Source: Chloroflexota bacterium (lineage in GTDB: Bacteria > Chloroflexota > Anaerolineae > UBA4142 > SHND01). From it: a DNA stretch of 56,968 nt. The notes beneath the pieces are model-generated. The model did no database searches and was not told where the DNA came from. It saw nothing but the letters and a program-made list of their open reading frames with translations. Shown in pieces: positions 3,231 to 8,214 of this stretch. The first letter of the stretch is position 1; every line of letters starts with the position of its first letter. Made by a program: the position numbers and the translations under genes. The stretch lies in contig JAKOPZ010000080.1 in the NCBI GenBank assembly GCA_029778615.1, positions 1-56,968 of the forward strand. Direction: 5' to 3'.

Positions 3231-3258
3231 TTGACATTCGCAAAAGGCGTGATAAACT
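3231..3258 (+). promoter_or_regulatory. Sigma-A-type promoter for the ABC exporter leader
   Basis: TTGACA (3231-3236) and TAAACT (3253-3258) are 16 bp apart. Transcription would start near 3265, leaving a leader of about 380 nt before the first ABC gene at 3643. Confidence 0.6.
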
Positions 3259-3372
3259 CTCCCTTGCTTTACTGGCAGGCGCTCGCGACCTTTAGTTGCT
3301 GCCTTTACAAGTTTTGACAATGATAGGAACAAGTTTGGTTCAGCAGTTGTCGGAACGAGTATCAATGAATTA

Positions 3373-3471
3373 ATGAGCATCATCTATTTCATGCTTCCGC
3401 GTGTTCGCACCACCCGTGTTTTGGGCGGTGATGCGTTCGCGCCCTGTACGAGTGCGCCTGTTGACGGATAA
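3373..3471 (+). CDS. Possible 32-residue leader peptide upstream of the ABC exporter
   Basis: ATG 3373 opens a 32-codon frame that begins MSIIYFMLPRVRTTRV and ends at TAA 3471. Two nucleotides after the stop codon starts a hairpin, GCGTTCC-aat-GGAACGC (3473-3489), followed by two intrinsic terminators. A translated short frame in front of hairpins and terminators is the usual layout of ribosome-mediated attenuation of drug-exporter genes, for example bmrB before bmrCD in Bacillus subtilis. The ribosome-binding site is weak (GGAACGAG) and the peptide resembles nothing I know, so this is a candidate only. Confidence 0.3.
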   Translation: MSIIYFMLPRVRTTRVLGGDAFAPCTSAPVDG

Positions 3472-3509
3472 TGCGTTCCAATGGAACGCCCCGTATCGCT
3501 GTCGTTTCG

Positions 3510-3550
3510 ACGGTCACAGTCGCATCTCCTGCGCTGTGACCGTTTTTTAT
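3510..3550 (+). terminator. First leader terminator of the ABC exporter
   Basis: A perfect 10-bp stem ACGGTCACAG / CTGTGACCGT with a 14-nt loop runs directly into a U-tract (TTTTTTAT). It lies in the leader about 95 nt before the ABC start codon, so transcripts must read through it to reach the transporter genes. Confidence 0.75.
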
Positions 3551-3562
3551 TTCTTATTGGTC

Positions 3563-3592
3563 AAGAGCGCATCTTTTCGGCGCTCTTTTTTA
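3563..3592 (+). terminator. Second leader terminator of the ABC exporter
   Basis: The 8-bp stem AAGAGCGC / GCGCTCTT with a 9-nt loop is followed by TTTTTA. It comes 13 bp after the first terminator, making a tandem pair just before the ribosome-binding site. Confidence 0.65.
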
Positions 3593-3642
3593 TCTATCGC
3601 GTTCGCACCGTGAAGTGTGAATGGGAGGCAACGACAGAAATT

Positions 3643-5514
3643 ATGGCTAGAACAAACACGTCCGATTTTCAACATATCGCAAACCAAAAACCACTCGTGG
3701 GCTTGTGGGGTTTGCTGCGCGGCTTTCGGCTGGGTTATGGCGTCGCGGTAAGTTCGCTCGCGATTTCCGTCGCCGCGCGCACCGGAACGTTTTTCCTCAT
3801 CGGTTACTTGGTGGACAACATTCTCCAACAGACCGCGATGCTCCAGGTGCTGCCGTTGGTCGCGGCAGGATTTGTCGCGCTCGCGCTCACCGAAGGAACG
3901 TTCTCGTTTTTGAGCGGGCGTTTCGCCGCGCGCACCGCCGAAGGCATTGCGCGCAAGATTCGCAATTATTTGTATGACCACATTCAACGCATGACGTTCG
4001 CGTTCCATGACAAAATGCCCACGGGCGATTTGATTCAGCGCGCGACGTCGGATGTGGAAGCGGTGCGCCGCTTTTATCAAGAGCAGGCGATTGGCGTGGG
4101 GCGCATCACGCTGCTTTTTCTCGTGAACTTTATCGCGCTGTTGAATTTAAACGCGCGGCTCGCGCTCGCGTCGGTGGTCGTCGTTCCTGTCATCGTCATC
4201 ATGTCCACGTTCTTTTTCCGCCGCGTTTCCAAAGCGTACGAACATTATCAAGAACAAGACGCGGTGGTTTCGACAACGCTGCAAGAAAACTTGACGGGCG
4301 TGCGCGTGGTCAAGGCGTTCGCGCGACAGCAGTACGAAATGGACAAGTTTGAAAAAGACAATTACGAAAAGTTCGTGCGCGGGAAAAAATTGCTCATCAT
4401 GCACTCGCTCTTTTGGCCCACCGCCGACATTTTGTGCGCGACGCAAATGATTGCGGGGTTCGCCATCGGCGCGTTGATGACCATGAACAATCAACTCACG
4501 CTCGGCGAATATGTAACGTACATGGGACTCGTCATTTTGTTGATTTGGCCCATGCGCGAATTGGGGCGCCAAATCGTGCAAGCGTCAACGGGCATGGTCT
4601 CGTTCGGACGTTTGGCAGAAATCATCCGCACCGACCGCGAGCCGATTGAACACGGCACGTTTACACCGCCCGCGAATTATCGTTTGCGCGGCGACATTGA
4701 ATTTGAAAATGTGGGTTTCGAGTACGAGCAAGAACAGCGCGTCCTGCACGAAATTTCGTTTCACGCGGAACCCGGACAAGTGATTGCGTTGATGGGTCCG
4801 ACCGGTTCGGGAAAAACATCGCTCGTGAATTTGATTCCGCGTTTCTATGAATATGAACAGGGCAGTATTCGACTCGACGGTGTGGAATTGAAAGAGTATC
4901 CGCGCGATTACTTGCGCCGGAACATCGGCATTGTGGAACAAGAACCGTTCTTGTTCTCGCGCACGATTCGTGAAAACATCACCTACGGCGTCGGACGCGA
5001 GGTATCGGATGATGAAGTGTTCGCCGCAGCAAAGGCGGCGGCAATTCACCAGGGCATCCTGACTTTTCCCGATGGGTACAACACGCTCGTCGGCGAAAAA
5101 GGCGTGATGCTTTCGGGTGGACAAATGCAGCGGGTGACGATTGCGCGCACGATTCTAAAAAATCCGCGCATTCTCATTCTCGACGATTCCACGTCGTCAG
5201 TGGATACGGAAACGGAAGAAGAAATTCGCAACGCGCTCGAAGAATTGATGAATGACCGCACAACGTTCATCATCGCGCATCGCATTCAAAGCGTGATGAA
5301 CGCCGACCAAATTCTCGTGATGGAACACGGACACATTACCCAACGCGGCACACACCGCGAGTTGGTGAATCAAGACGGGTTGTATCGCAAGATTTACGAA
5401 CTGCAAGCGAAAATCGAAACCGAAGTCGAGCGCGAAGTGGAAGAGAGCACGCACGAACATGCGCCAAAAGGCGACGCGCAGGCGATGCACGAACGGGCAG
5501 CAGTCTTGAACTAG
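3643..5514 (+). CDS. ABC exporter half-transporter, subunit with degenerate catalytic base
   Basis: 623 residues from ATG 3643, preceded by GGGAGG; the frame is open further upstream, but that part overlaps the leader terminators. An N-terminal six-helix exporter domain (about 1-320) precedes a nucleotide-binding domain with Walker A GPTGSGKTS (about 384), signature LSGGQMQRV (about 489), Walker B ILILDDSTSSVD (about 509) and the H-loop IAHR (about 543). The residue after the Walker B aspartate is Asp, not the catalytic Glu. This matches the non-catalytic subunit of heterodimeric exporters such as TM287/288 or BmrC/BmrD. The C-terminus is a charged Glu/His-rich tail. The partner gene follows after 58 bp. 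The substrate is unknown; drugs or lipids are typical for the class. Confidence 0.9.
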   Translation: MARTNTSDFQHIANQKPLVGLWGLLRGFRLGYGVAVSSLAISVAARTGTFFLIGYLVDNILQQTAMLQVLPLVAAGFVALALTEGTFSFLSGRFAARTAEGIARKIRNYLYDHIQRMTFAFHDKMPTGDLIQRATSDVEAVRRFYQEQAIGVGRITLLFLVNFIALLNLNARLALASVVVVPVIVIMSTFFFRRVSKAYEHYQEQDAVVSTTLQENLTGVRVVKAFARQQYEMDKFEKDNYEKFVRGKKLLIMHSLFWPTADILCATQMIAGFAIGALMTMNNQLTLGEYVTYMGLVILLIWPMRELGRQIVQASTGMVSFGRLAEIIRTDREPIEHGTFTPPANYRLRGDIEFENVGFEYEQEQRVLHEISFHAEPGQVIALMGPTGSGKTSLVNLIPRFYEYEQGSIRLDGVELKEYPRDYLRRNIGIVEQEPFLFSRTIRENITYGVGREVSDDEVFAAAKAAAIHQGILTFPDGYNTLVGEKGVMLSGGQMQRVTIARTILKNPRILILDDSTSSVDTETEEEIRNALEELMNDRTTFIIAHRIQSVMNADQILVMEHGHITQRGTHRELVNQDGLYRKIYELQAKIETEVEREVEESTHEHAPKGDAQAMHERAAVLN

Positions 5515-5521
5515 AAATGAT

Positions 5522-5556
5522 AAGTTCAAAAAATGATTCCATCATTTTTTGAACTT
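5522..5556. other. Long AT-rich hairpin between the two ABC genes
   Basis: A perfect 16-bp inverted repeat (AAGTTCAAAAAATGAT and its complement) surrounds a 3-nt centre just after the first ABC stop codon. With its internal A and T runs it could be a weak bidirectional terminator or an RNA-processing or stability element that sets the subunit ratio. Confidence 0.6.
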
Positions 5557-5572
5557 TATCTCTCTCCTCACC

Positions 5573-7396
5573 ATGAATTACGAATTTGAAGAAGAAGATT
5601 TTCAGGCACAACTTTCGGGCAAGACGCTCAAGCGCATGTTCACGCTCACGCTGCCGCACAAGTGGTGGCTGATTGGGTTCATCGTGCTGATTGCTGTCGT
5701 CGCGGCGCAAGATGGCGTGTTCAATTATTTGAAAAAGTTGATAATTGACCAAGGGATTGTGCCGCATGACACGGCCGCGCTGACGAGCGCGCTGATTGTG
5801 TACGCCATCATCGCGCTCACGCAAGCGGCGGGCGTGTTCGGGTTCATTTATCTCGCGGGCATTCTCGGCGAACGCGTGCAGTACGATTTACGCAAGAAAC
5901 TGTTCAATCACTTGCAGACTCTTTCGTTCTCGTACTTTGACCGCACTGCCGTTGGCTGGATCATGTCGCGCGTGACGAGTGATACAGGACACATCGCGGA
6001 CTTGATTACGTGGGGCGCGGTGGATGTGACGTGGGCAATCATGTCCATCATCACAGCAGGATTTTTCATGCTGTTGTTGAATTGGCAGCTCGCGCTCGTC
6101 GTTCTCACCATCATTCCAATCTTGGTGATTGTTGCATCCTGGTTTCAAAAACGCATCATCATGCAATATCGGATTGTGCGAAAAACCAACTCGCGCATTA
6201 CGGGCGCGTACAATGAAAACATTCAAGGTGTGCGCGTCATCAAGGCATTGAACCGCGAAGAAAAAAATCTGGACGAGTTCAGCGATTTGACGGGACAAAT
6301 GTTCACCGCATCGTTCCGCGCGGCGCGTTTGTCGGCAATGTTTTTGCCAGTGGTGCAATTCATCAGCGCGATTGCGTTGAGCATCATTGCGTACTATGGC
6401 GGCGCACAAATCGTATGGGGCACGATGACCGTCGGAACGCTGCAAGCGTTCATCGGTTATATCACGTTCATGCTGTGGCCCGTACAAGATTTGGCGCGCG
6501 TGTATGCTTCGATGCAGCACGCGGTCGCGTCGGCGGAACGAACGTTTTCGCTGCTCGATACACCGGCGGACATTGTGGACCGTCCGAATGCAATTGACCC
6601 GGGCACCTTGCGCGGCGATATTGAATTCGCCCATGTAGATTTTTGGTACGCGCCGGATAAACCGGTGTTGCGCGATTTCAATTTGCATGTGAAAGCGGGC
6701 GAAACGCTTGCTATCGTCGGCGCAACCGGTGGCGGCAAATCCACTATCGCCAATCTCCTCTGCCGTTTTTATGAACCGAAACGCGGTACCATCAAAATCG
6801 GCGGACGCGATTACATGGATTTGACGCTCCACAGCATTCATTCGCGTATCGGCGTCGTGCTGCAAACGCCGCACTTGTTTAGCGGCACGATTCGCGAAAA
6901 CATTCGCTATGGCAAATTGGAAGCAAGTGATGCGCAAGTGGAACATGCCGCCCAAGTCGCGGGCGCGCACGATTTCATCGTCACGCTCGATAAACAATAT
7001 GACGCACAAGTGGGTGAAGGCGGCAACTTGTTGTCAACGGGACAGAAACAACTCATTTCTCTCGCGCGCGCGGTGTTGGCGAATCCCGACATTCTCATCA
7101 TGGACGAAGCGACGAGCTCGGTGGACACGTTGACGGAAGCGTTGATTCAACGCGGGATGGAACACGTGATGCAAGGACGCACCAGTTTCGTCATCGCGCA
7201 TCGTCTCTCGACGATTAAACGCGCGAGTCGGATTCTCGTCATCGAGAATGGCGGGATTTCGGAAATGGGTACGCACGCGGAGCTGTTACGCAAACACGGA
7301 CACTATTACGACCTCTACACGCGCCAATTCCGCAAAGAATTGGAGAGCGAGTACGGTTTGGGACGGTTGACGGGGTTGGCGGTGGCGGCGGAGTAG
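5573..7396 (+). CDS. ABC exporter half-transporter, catalytic subunit
   Basis: 607 residues from ATG 5573 (an in-frame TTG lies upstream inside the hairpin). Transmembrane exporter domain about 25-315, then a nucleotide-binding domain: Walker A GATGGGKST (about 382), signature LSTGQKQ instead of LSGGQ (about 486), canonical Walker B ILIMDEATSSVD (about 506), and the H-loop IAHRLST (about 541). Its signature motif is altered where the partner has a normal one, and its Walker B Glu is present where the partner has Asp. In a dimer, one ATP site would therefore combine both defects and the other would be fully canonical, the hallmark of asymmetric exporters. It follows the partner gene and precedes a terminator at 7467. 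Confidence 0.9.
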   Translation: MNYEFEEEDFQAQLSGKTLKRMFTLTLPHKWWLIGFIVLIAVVAAQDGVFNYLKKLIIDQGIVPHDTAALTSALIVYAIIALTQAAGVFGFIYLAGILGERVQYDLRKKLFNHLQTLSFSYFDRTAVGWIMSRVTSDTGHIADLITWGAVDVTWAIMSIITAGFFMLLLNWQLALVVLTIIPILVIVASWFQKRIIMQYRIVRKTNSRITGAYNENIQGVRVIKALNREEKNLDEFSDLTGQMFTASFRAARLSAMFLPVVQFISAIALSIIAYYGGAQIVWGTMTVGTLQAFIGYITFMLWPVQDLARVYASMQHAVASAERTFSLLDTPADIVDRPNAIDPGTLRGDIEFAHVDFWYAPDKPVLRDFNLHVKAGETLAIVGATGGGKSTIANLLCRFYEPKRGTIKIGGRDYMDLTLHSIHSRIGVVLQTPHLFSGTIRENIRYGKLEASDAQVEHAAQVAGAHDFIVTLDKQYDAQVGEGGNLLSTGQKQLISLARAVLANPDILIMDEATSSVDTLTEALIQRGMEHVMQGRTSFVIAHRLSTIKRASRILVIENGGISEMGTHAELLRKHGHYYDLYTRQFRKELESEYGLGRLTGLAVAAE

Positions 7397-7448: not shown

Positions 7449-7466
7449 TGTGCGATGAGAAAAAGG

Positions 7467-7503
7467 AAACCTGACGCGTGGAGATGGCGCGTCAGGTTTT
7501 CCT
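7467..7503 (+). terminator. Intrinsic terminator after the ABC exporter genes
   Basis: Stem AAACCTGACGCG / CGCGTCAGGTTT (12 bp) with a 9-nt loop is followed by TTCCTTTA. It ends the ABC transcript just before the higBA promoter. Confidence 0.7.
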
Positions 7504-7504
7504 T

Positions 7505-7521
7505 TATCTCAATTTGAGATA
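7505..7521. promoter_or_regulatory. Palindromic operator over the higBA promoter
   Basis: TATCTCAA-t-TTGAGATA is a 17-bp palindrome with a single central base. It abuts the -10-like TATACT (7520-7525), only 6 bp before the GTG start of higB. Type II antitoxins of the HigA kind bind such palindromes to repress their own operon, so this is the likely HigA site. The short distance implies a leaderless or nearly leaderless mRNA. Confidence 0.6.
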
Positions 7522-7531
7522 TACTTGCAGT

Positions 7532-7819
7532 GTGCATGTCATTTCCCGCAAGGCGTTAAAAGAATTTTGGGTTCGGCATCCTGATAGTAAAACGGTGCTC
7601 GTGCGCTGGCACAAGGCAATGGTGCGTGCCGAGTTCAAATCCTTTGCCGAATTGCGCTTGGCGTTCCCGAGCGCGGATTGGGTCGGACCATGGATTGTGT
7701 TTAATATCGGCGGCAACAAATATCGTCTCATTACCTCAATGCATTTCAATCGCGGCAAGGTGTATATTCGGCAAGTGTTGACCCATCCAGAGTACGAGAA
7801 AGGAAGCTGGAAAGAATGA
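7532..7819 (+). CDS. higB: HigB-family toxin (RelE-like mRNA interferase)
   Basis: 95 residues from GTG 7532 (VHVISRKALKEFW). Family features are the N-terminal HVISRKAL, a central GPWIVFNIGGNKYRLI and the C-terminal VYIRQVLTHPEY segment with its basic and His residues. HigB toxins cut mRNA on the ribosome and are held inactive by HigA. The toxin gene comes first, as usual for higBA, and overlaps the antitoxin gene by 4 bp (ATGA). The longer open frame upstream would run through the ABC terminator and the operator, so GTG is preferred. Activity is inferred from the family. Confidence 0.88.
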   Translation: MHVISRKALKEFWVRHPDSKTVLVRWHKAMVRAEFKSFAELRLAFPSADWVGPWIVFNIGGNKYRLITSMHFNRGKVYIRQVLTHPEYEKGSWKE

Positions 7820-8214
7820 GCGTAAATCTGAAAACGCTACAGACACAGTGGCGACCATTGCGTCCGCTGCTTACAATTCGTAACGAACGTGAATACGACC
7901 AAGCAGTCGCGCGCCTCAACACGTTGTTGGACGAAATTGGCACCAACGAAAAACACCCTCTCTACGGTTTGCTCGATACGCTTGGCACACTCGTTCACGC
8001 GTACGAGGAAAAACATATTCGGATGCCTGACGCGAGCGGTGGAGAGATGCTGCAATTTTTCATGGACGAACACGGCTTGACCCAATCCGATTTGCCCGAA
8101 GTCGGTTCGCAAGGTGTCCTTTCGGAAATTCTGAATGGCAAACGCGAATTGAACGTGCGCCAAATTCGCGCGTTGGCGAAACGCTTCCATGTGTCGCCTG
8201 CGGTCTTTGTTTGA
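7816..8214 (+). CDS. higA: HigA-family antitoxin with XRE-type helix-turn-helix
   Basis: 132 residues. The N-terminal part (to about 75) is helical and typical of the HigA group, with residues such as REYDQAVARLNTLLDE. The C-terminal part holds an XRE helix-turn-helix (LTQSDLPEVGSQGVLSEIL, then KRELNVRQIRALAKRFHVS). It neutralises HigB and probably represses the operon at the palindrome at 7505. Start and toxin stop overlap by ATGA, so the two are translationally coupled. The pair stands alone between two convergent housekeeping transcripts and is bracketed by 37-bp repeats. Confidence 0.88.
   Translation: MSVNLKTLQTQWRPLRPLLTIRNEREYDQAVARLNTLLDEIGTNEKHPLYGLLDTLGTLVHAYEEKHIRMPDASGGEMLQFFMDEHGLTQSDLPEVGSQGVLSEILNGKRELNVRQIRALAKRFHVSPAVFV

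Follow-up and report, generated by a model that had tools for sequence, protein, structure and literature searches.

The ABC exporter operon of the window, the whole 56,968-nt stretch of Chloroflexota DNA analyzed here, is preceded by a leader which, judged from conservation and predicted pairing, probably acts as a transcription attenuator read by the ribosome on a short upstream open reading frame (uORF). This leader likely belongs to a previously unnoticed family of attenuators of resistance genes in the Anaerolineae. Antibiotic-responsive attenuators whose segments have been mapped come mainly from Firmicutes, with a few examples from other groups; searches of the open-access literature found none for Chloroflexota, nor any earlier description of such a leader family in Anaerolineae or Chloroflexota.

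Exporter operon and its leader

The operon encodes two exporter subunits on the forward strand (subunit 1, 3643–5514; subunit 2, 5573–7396), each with the Pfam domains PF00664 (ABC_membrane) and PF00005 (ABC_tran). According to the translations, NBD1 of subunit 1 carries a degenerate Walker B motif ending in ILILDD, with Glu replaced by Asp, and NBD2 of subunit 2 a non-canonical LLSTGQ signature, in agreement with the original prediction of an asymmetric exporter. PDB matches of subunit 1 include TM288 and 7m33 chain YheI. Between the two genes lies a near-perfect 16-bp inverted repeat (5522–5556), and the relatives L006 and L007 seem to have a short intergenic hairpin as well. Downstream of the operon, a strong terminator-like hairpin of 15 bp (7465–7501) is found, as well as two small ORFs (7478–8214; 113 and 132 aa) which by appearance form a putative pair of HigB-type toxin and HTH antitoxin. 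An ORF at 1456–2487 (343 aa) reads as a putative serine recombinase-like protein whose start is possibly frameshifted.

The leader begins with a promoter on the forward strand (3231–3258) consisting of TTGACA (3231–3236), a 16-nt spacer and TAAACT (3253–3258), which matches the consensus at 10/12 positions and has an extended −10 TG. Sites matching at least 10/12 positions occur upstream of 29 of 38 related leaders (mean 10.4 vs. 7.3 in shuffled DNA, scored on sequence only). Next comes segment 1 (GGCAGGCGCUCG, 3274–3285), a candidate anti-antiterminator which in the predicted leader fold is able to pair with segment 2. Between segment 1 and the uORF, a hairpin is predicted at 3312–3355 (arms UUUUGACAA and UUGUCGGAA); it recurs in the six exporter leaders of the genus, and on inspection L004–L008 have the same arms. 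The uORF itself (3373–3471, forward strand) starts with ATG at 3373, encodes the 32 aa MSIIYFMLPRVRTTRVLGGDAFAPCTSAPVDG and ends with the stop codon at 3469–3471. Its start is overlapped, as TAATG, by a two-codon frame (ATG-NNT-TAA, 3364–3375) which is kept in 6/6 exporter leaders of the genus. Segment 2 (3450–3465), the conserved core GAGUGCGCCUGUUGAC, spans the S-A-P-V-D codons of the uORF and is assigned from pairing and conservation as the 5′ strand of the antiterminator.

Downstream of the uORF, terminator 1 (T1, 3510–3548) is formed by the arms 3510–3519/3534–3543 with an inner stem 3521–3524/3530–3533 and a T6 tract (U run 3543–3548). It has a ΔG of −23.9 and is near-identical in five relatives of the same genus; its 5′ arm and loop contain segment 3 (3513–3528), the partner of segment 2 by duplex prediction. 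Terminator 2 (T2, 3563–3592; arms 3563–3570/3580–3587, then a U run) follows, and a second terminator is also present downstream in nearly all relatives. Promoter, 32-codon frame and both terminators thus lie where the original prediction had placed them (3231, 3373–3471, 3510 and 3563). The hairpin which it noted 2 nt after the uORF stop also exists, with 7 bp (3473–3479/3483–3489), but is not generally conserved: among five relatives of the same genus it is clearly kept in L004 only, and L008 has a different hairpin. It is therefore probably dispensable.

As a whole, the 381-nt leader has a more stable predicted fold than its dinucleotide shuffles (z −5.6). A generic terminator scan was uninformative (12 found vs. 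11.4 in shuffles) and omits T1 and T2, whose loops are longer than the maximum of 8 that it accepts; the two terminators are credible because they are conserved. Conservation in close relatives, on which the original prediction had been made to depend, is indeed observed, as promoter, uORF and T1 precede the orthologous exporter in 6/6 genomes of the genus (L001, L004–L008).

The leader family

When the leader DNA was searched against the genome from which the window comes, a paralogous leader, L002, was found in front of tandem GNAT acetyltransferase genes, and GNAT-type leaders like it were found in 5/5 other genomes of the genus. A uORF-peptide pattern with one mismatch allowed matched only within this genus, so that profile searches were needed; across 396 genomes of the class, these uncovered a wider family whose uORFs share the C-terminal motif PCRSAP. 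In these searches the family comprises about 50 leaders, all from Chloroflexota and mostly from Anaerolineae, with some placed just as Chloroflexi. One member, L113, belongs to Anaerolinea thermolimosa IMO-1. Two further Chloroflexi candidates, L126 and L182, were discarded as chance matches.

When 84,980 species genomes were scanned with a pattern, the combination of short uORF and terminator occurred, among the matches listed, in Chloroflexota in all cases, and those short-frame matches outside the phylum that were examined had no comparable terminator. A phylum-wide HMM search yielded no convincing member outside the class, and its matches L245 and L247 were rejected, being located in long frames. 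The nucleotide pattern of the core alone is no commoner than a reversed control; members are recognized by the surrounding Shine-Dalgarno sequence (SD), uORF and terminator.

Protein-family searches with representative target genes identified exporters with ABC_membrane/ABC_tran, a drrA-like ATPase, GNATs, one transporter of the MFS type and a HAD hydrolase. The target of L132 is an ABC-F protein whose score exceeds the NCBIfam cut-off for ribosomal protection-like ABC-F, and the remaining target genes were identified by eye from translations. In another genome (G050), the leader L009 has the uORF MVYSSALGKPSRLPCSVLAPHA and then a terminator before an orthologous exporter; it carries a similar motif without the RNA core and is possibly a diverged member.

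Competing pairings and a proposed mechanism

The original prediction found no clear antiterminator pairing by eye. Such a pairing does exist: in the window, segment 2 (3450–3465) is predicted to form a 14-bp helix with 3513–3528 (−16.6 kcal/mol, shuffle p 0.015). In 41 leaders, the mean 2:3 duplex between segment 2 and its own T1 reaches −18.2 kcal/mol, as opposed to −10.7 kcal/mol for shuffled sequence (Wilcoxon p 1e-12; this and the other p values for the 2:3, 1:2 and 4:5 pairings overstate independence because the leaders share ancestry). The same pairing is also stronger than that of segment 2 with the T1 of other leaders (−15.7 kcal/mol, Wilcoxon p 4e-5) or with its own T2 (−10.1 kcal/mol, Wilcoxon p 7e-8). 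A second, separate set of 11 core-bearing leaders outside this test gave 2:3 p values of at most 0.05 in 10 cases.

Covariation in relatives, named in the original prediction as a check, is seen as compensatory changes within the 2:3 pairing. These comprise G-C to U-A at S2 in L242 (AUUGCGCC with GGCGCAA), C-G to U-A at P1 in L095 (GUCUG with CAGAC), C-G to U-A at A2 in L238 (GUGUGCC with GCGACAC) and A-U to G-C at S1, and three pair types are seen across leaders at the wobble position of the R codon; the table of these changes was built from the best duplexes and leans towards pairing, a bias of which the own-versus-others comparison is free.

Segment 2 is also able to pair, in most leaders, with a segment further 5′ that usually is the SD of the uORF. 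This 1:2 pairing with the uORF start region averages −17.3 vs. −10.6 kcal/mol (p 9e-9), and in the window the 1:2 duplex reaches −19.6 kcal/mol (shuffle p 0.005). Testing for 1:2 pairing at a fixed offset failed in four exporter leaders of the same genus, as the distance of segment 1 varies. A further pairing, 4:5, joins the 3′ arm of T1 to the 5′ arm of T2 (−14.5 vs. −9.7 for other leaders, p 3e-6) and is absent in the exporter subgroup of the window. As predicted from these pairings, the logic of segments 1:2, 2:3 and 3:4 in most leaders is that of a classical attenuator.

We propose a mechanism with four competing segments: segment 1, close to where the uORF starts and often its SD; segment 2, the core at the 3′ end of the uORF; segment 3, the 5′ arm and loop of T1; and segment 4, the 3′ arm of T1. 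The pairings 1:2 and 2:3 would be alternatives. An unhindered ribosome would reach the stop codon and occupy segment 2, so that 3:4 forms and transcription ends; if no ribosome is loaded, 1:2 would form, followed by 3:4, and the operon would likewise stay off. A ribosome that a translation inhibitor halts at an early point of the uORF would leave segment 2 free as segment 3 emerges, 2:3 would form first and the polymerase would pass T1. Segment 4, now free, would then be able in most relatives to pair with the 5′ arm of T2 and to disable it as well, a step which the subgroup of the window lacks. The order of events, the translation of the uORF and the induction by drugs are the parts of this model that we infer, and translation inhibition in general would be its most economical signal.

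When the RNA is folded as far as the loop of T1, the expected number of 2:3 pairs averages 11.4 with a ribosome near codon 13 and is zero with a ribosome at the stop codon. Once the 3′ arm of T1 is added, T1 dominates at equilibrium in nearly all leaders, the complete T1 averaging −22.4 kcal/mol vs. −18.4 kcal/mol for 2:3. Because the complete terminator is more stable and thus favored at equilibrium, the 2:3 pairing would have to act kinetically. This stability of T1 counts against the model, as does the fact that a ribosome stalled at codons 10–14 would not itself cover segment 1. Further points against it are the absence of 4:5 pairing in the subgroup of the window, the absence of a clear SD before the window's uORF and the absence of third-position bias in the N-terminal part of the uORF.

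Reading of the uORF and comparison with known systems

The uORF frame is open in 39/39 tabulated leaders, as opposed to 9 and 5 for the other two frames, and an SD precedes the uORF in 32 of the 33 leaders outside the exporter subgroup. The uORFs of the six exporter leaders of the genus, that of the window included, have no clear SD; reinitiation from the two-codon frame could possibly load ribosomes on these SD-poor uORFs. In a codon-position test, the N-terminal part of the uORF showed neither third-position bias nor a sign of purifying selection.

The motif [RK]x[RK] precedes the core in 12 of 39 uORFs, vs. 4.4 expected after shuffling; the window has RVR at codons 10–12, and several relatives have RLR at codons 12–14. 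Since RLR is where ErmDL is arrested by ketolides (PMC8298421) and is also found in the rli80 uORF (PMC6310831), the leaders might be attenuators specific to macrolides or ketolides, like those of ermD or rli80, with R-x-R in mid-uORF as the trigger. We regard this as unlikely, since the motif is missing from 27/39 uORFs, that of the paralogous leader L002 among them. R-x-R is thus at most a specialization of a general mechanism and not its common trigger; a sharper response to macrolides and ketolides may be its effect.

The core is read as PCRSAP in most leaders, and a conserved arrest peptide was initially the favored explanation. According to it, the C-terminal motif (PCRSAP, or PCTSAPVD) would stall a drug-bound ribosome, which in turn would refold the RNA. 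The motif recurs in dozens of uORFs with its Cys nearly always retained, and Ala, Ser or Thr just before the last residues would suit stalling by chloramphenicol or linezolid. This explanation was dropped upon finding a second reading frame. A nucleotide search of 288 genomes of the class showed that the core, CCUUGUCGUAGUGCGCC, is entered in another frame in L260, L264, L265, L266 and L268. Second-frame uORFs end in LS at a UAG inside the core in at least six leaders, L132 being arranged likewise, and L208 has the core in a third reading (such alternative readings end in LS or ALSECAC). Moreover, wobble bases are fixed where they are paired, residues follow changes of the pairing partner (S to I, P to S), and a ribosome stopped at the motif would cover segment 2 and favor termination. 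An arrest-peptide switch is therefore improbable, and more so than a macrolide-specific one.

The core is thus conserved in about 50 leaders across more than one reading frame, which argues that the RNA, more than an arrest peptide, is the conserved element. Whichever of the two main frames is used, a ribosome terminating on the uORF sits over segment 2, in keeping with the role of this segment in the attenuator that we propose. The eight bases that precede segment 2, CCUUGUCG, are conserved across reading frames yet mostly unpaired in every predicted state (e.g., L010, L093 and L268).

An amino-acid attenuator or metabolite riboswitch, for which the architecture resembling trp-type attenuators would speak, is very unlikely: inspection of the uORFs revealed no conserved repeated codon and no cognate-codon run, the targets are not biosynthetic, and the window and six relatives match no Rfam family (T-box, riboswitches or known leaders) at gathering score. 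Least probable of all is that the terminators do no more than shield the operon from transcription arriving from upstream, with an accidental uORF, since the set of promoter, uORF, core and terminator is conserved as a unit in different families and before different types of gene, with covarying pairing, even if generic scans return terminators and promoters at about chance number.

Beyond the ribosome-read attenuator itself, we hold a wider proposal to be about evenly balanced, namely that the leaders form a class-wide family, mobile in context, which constitutes a cis-encoded resistance regulon sensing a general slow-down of the ribosome and not one drug. Its conserved unit would be the RNA core read in different frames, and most members would have two tandem terminators with shared arms that are switched off stepwise as a cascade, first by 2:3 and then by 4:5. 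If the attenuator reading is right, one RNA element flags translation-stress-linked exporters, acetyltransferases and ABC-F genes in hard-to-culture genomes and offers a handle on substrates yet to be assigned. In a natural leader of this kind, selection on the RNA can be told apart from selection on the peptide by the two reading frames, and the double terminator with shared arms is a directly testable design.

Among known systems, trp-type attenuators share the 1:2, 2:3 and 3:4 segments, whereas the Anaerolineae leaders have no cognate-codon run, their segment 1 is often the ribosome-binding site of the uORF itself and the presumed signal is translation inhibition. ErmDL-type translational attenuators use a drug-stalled uORF as sensor, as proposed for the Anaerolineae leaders, and a minority of the Anaerolineae uORFs contain the corresponding +X+ motif; there, however, control consists in freeing the ribosome-binding site of the gene, as opposed to transcription termination. 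The rli80 leader of hflXr in Listeria monocytogenes combines a short uORF, alternative terminator and antiterminator and a resistance-type target, and its RLR recurs in some Anaerolineae members; its uORF has 14 codons, most Anaerolineae uORFs are without RLR and the targets differ (PMC6310831). Another close system is the bmrB leader of bmrCD in Bacillus subtilis, where a uORF also precedes a heterodimeric ABC exporter and terminator, antiterminator and anti-antiterminator are found, the antiterminator being less stable than the terminator and described as acting in time, not at equilibrium (PMC4191407). The terminator lies inside the uORF in bmrB and downstream of it in the Anaerolineae leaders, which moreover belong to another phylum, have two tandem terminators and place one core before many gene types. 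The bmrB-type ribosome-mediated attenuation suggested in the original prediction is supported at the sequence level by the conserved antiterminator, the anti-antiterminator in most leaders and the other resistance-type targets, including ABC-F. The leader, and with it the family, would work like the bmrB and rli80 attenuators, a likeness drawn from architecture.
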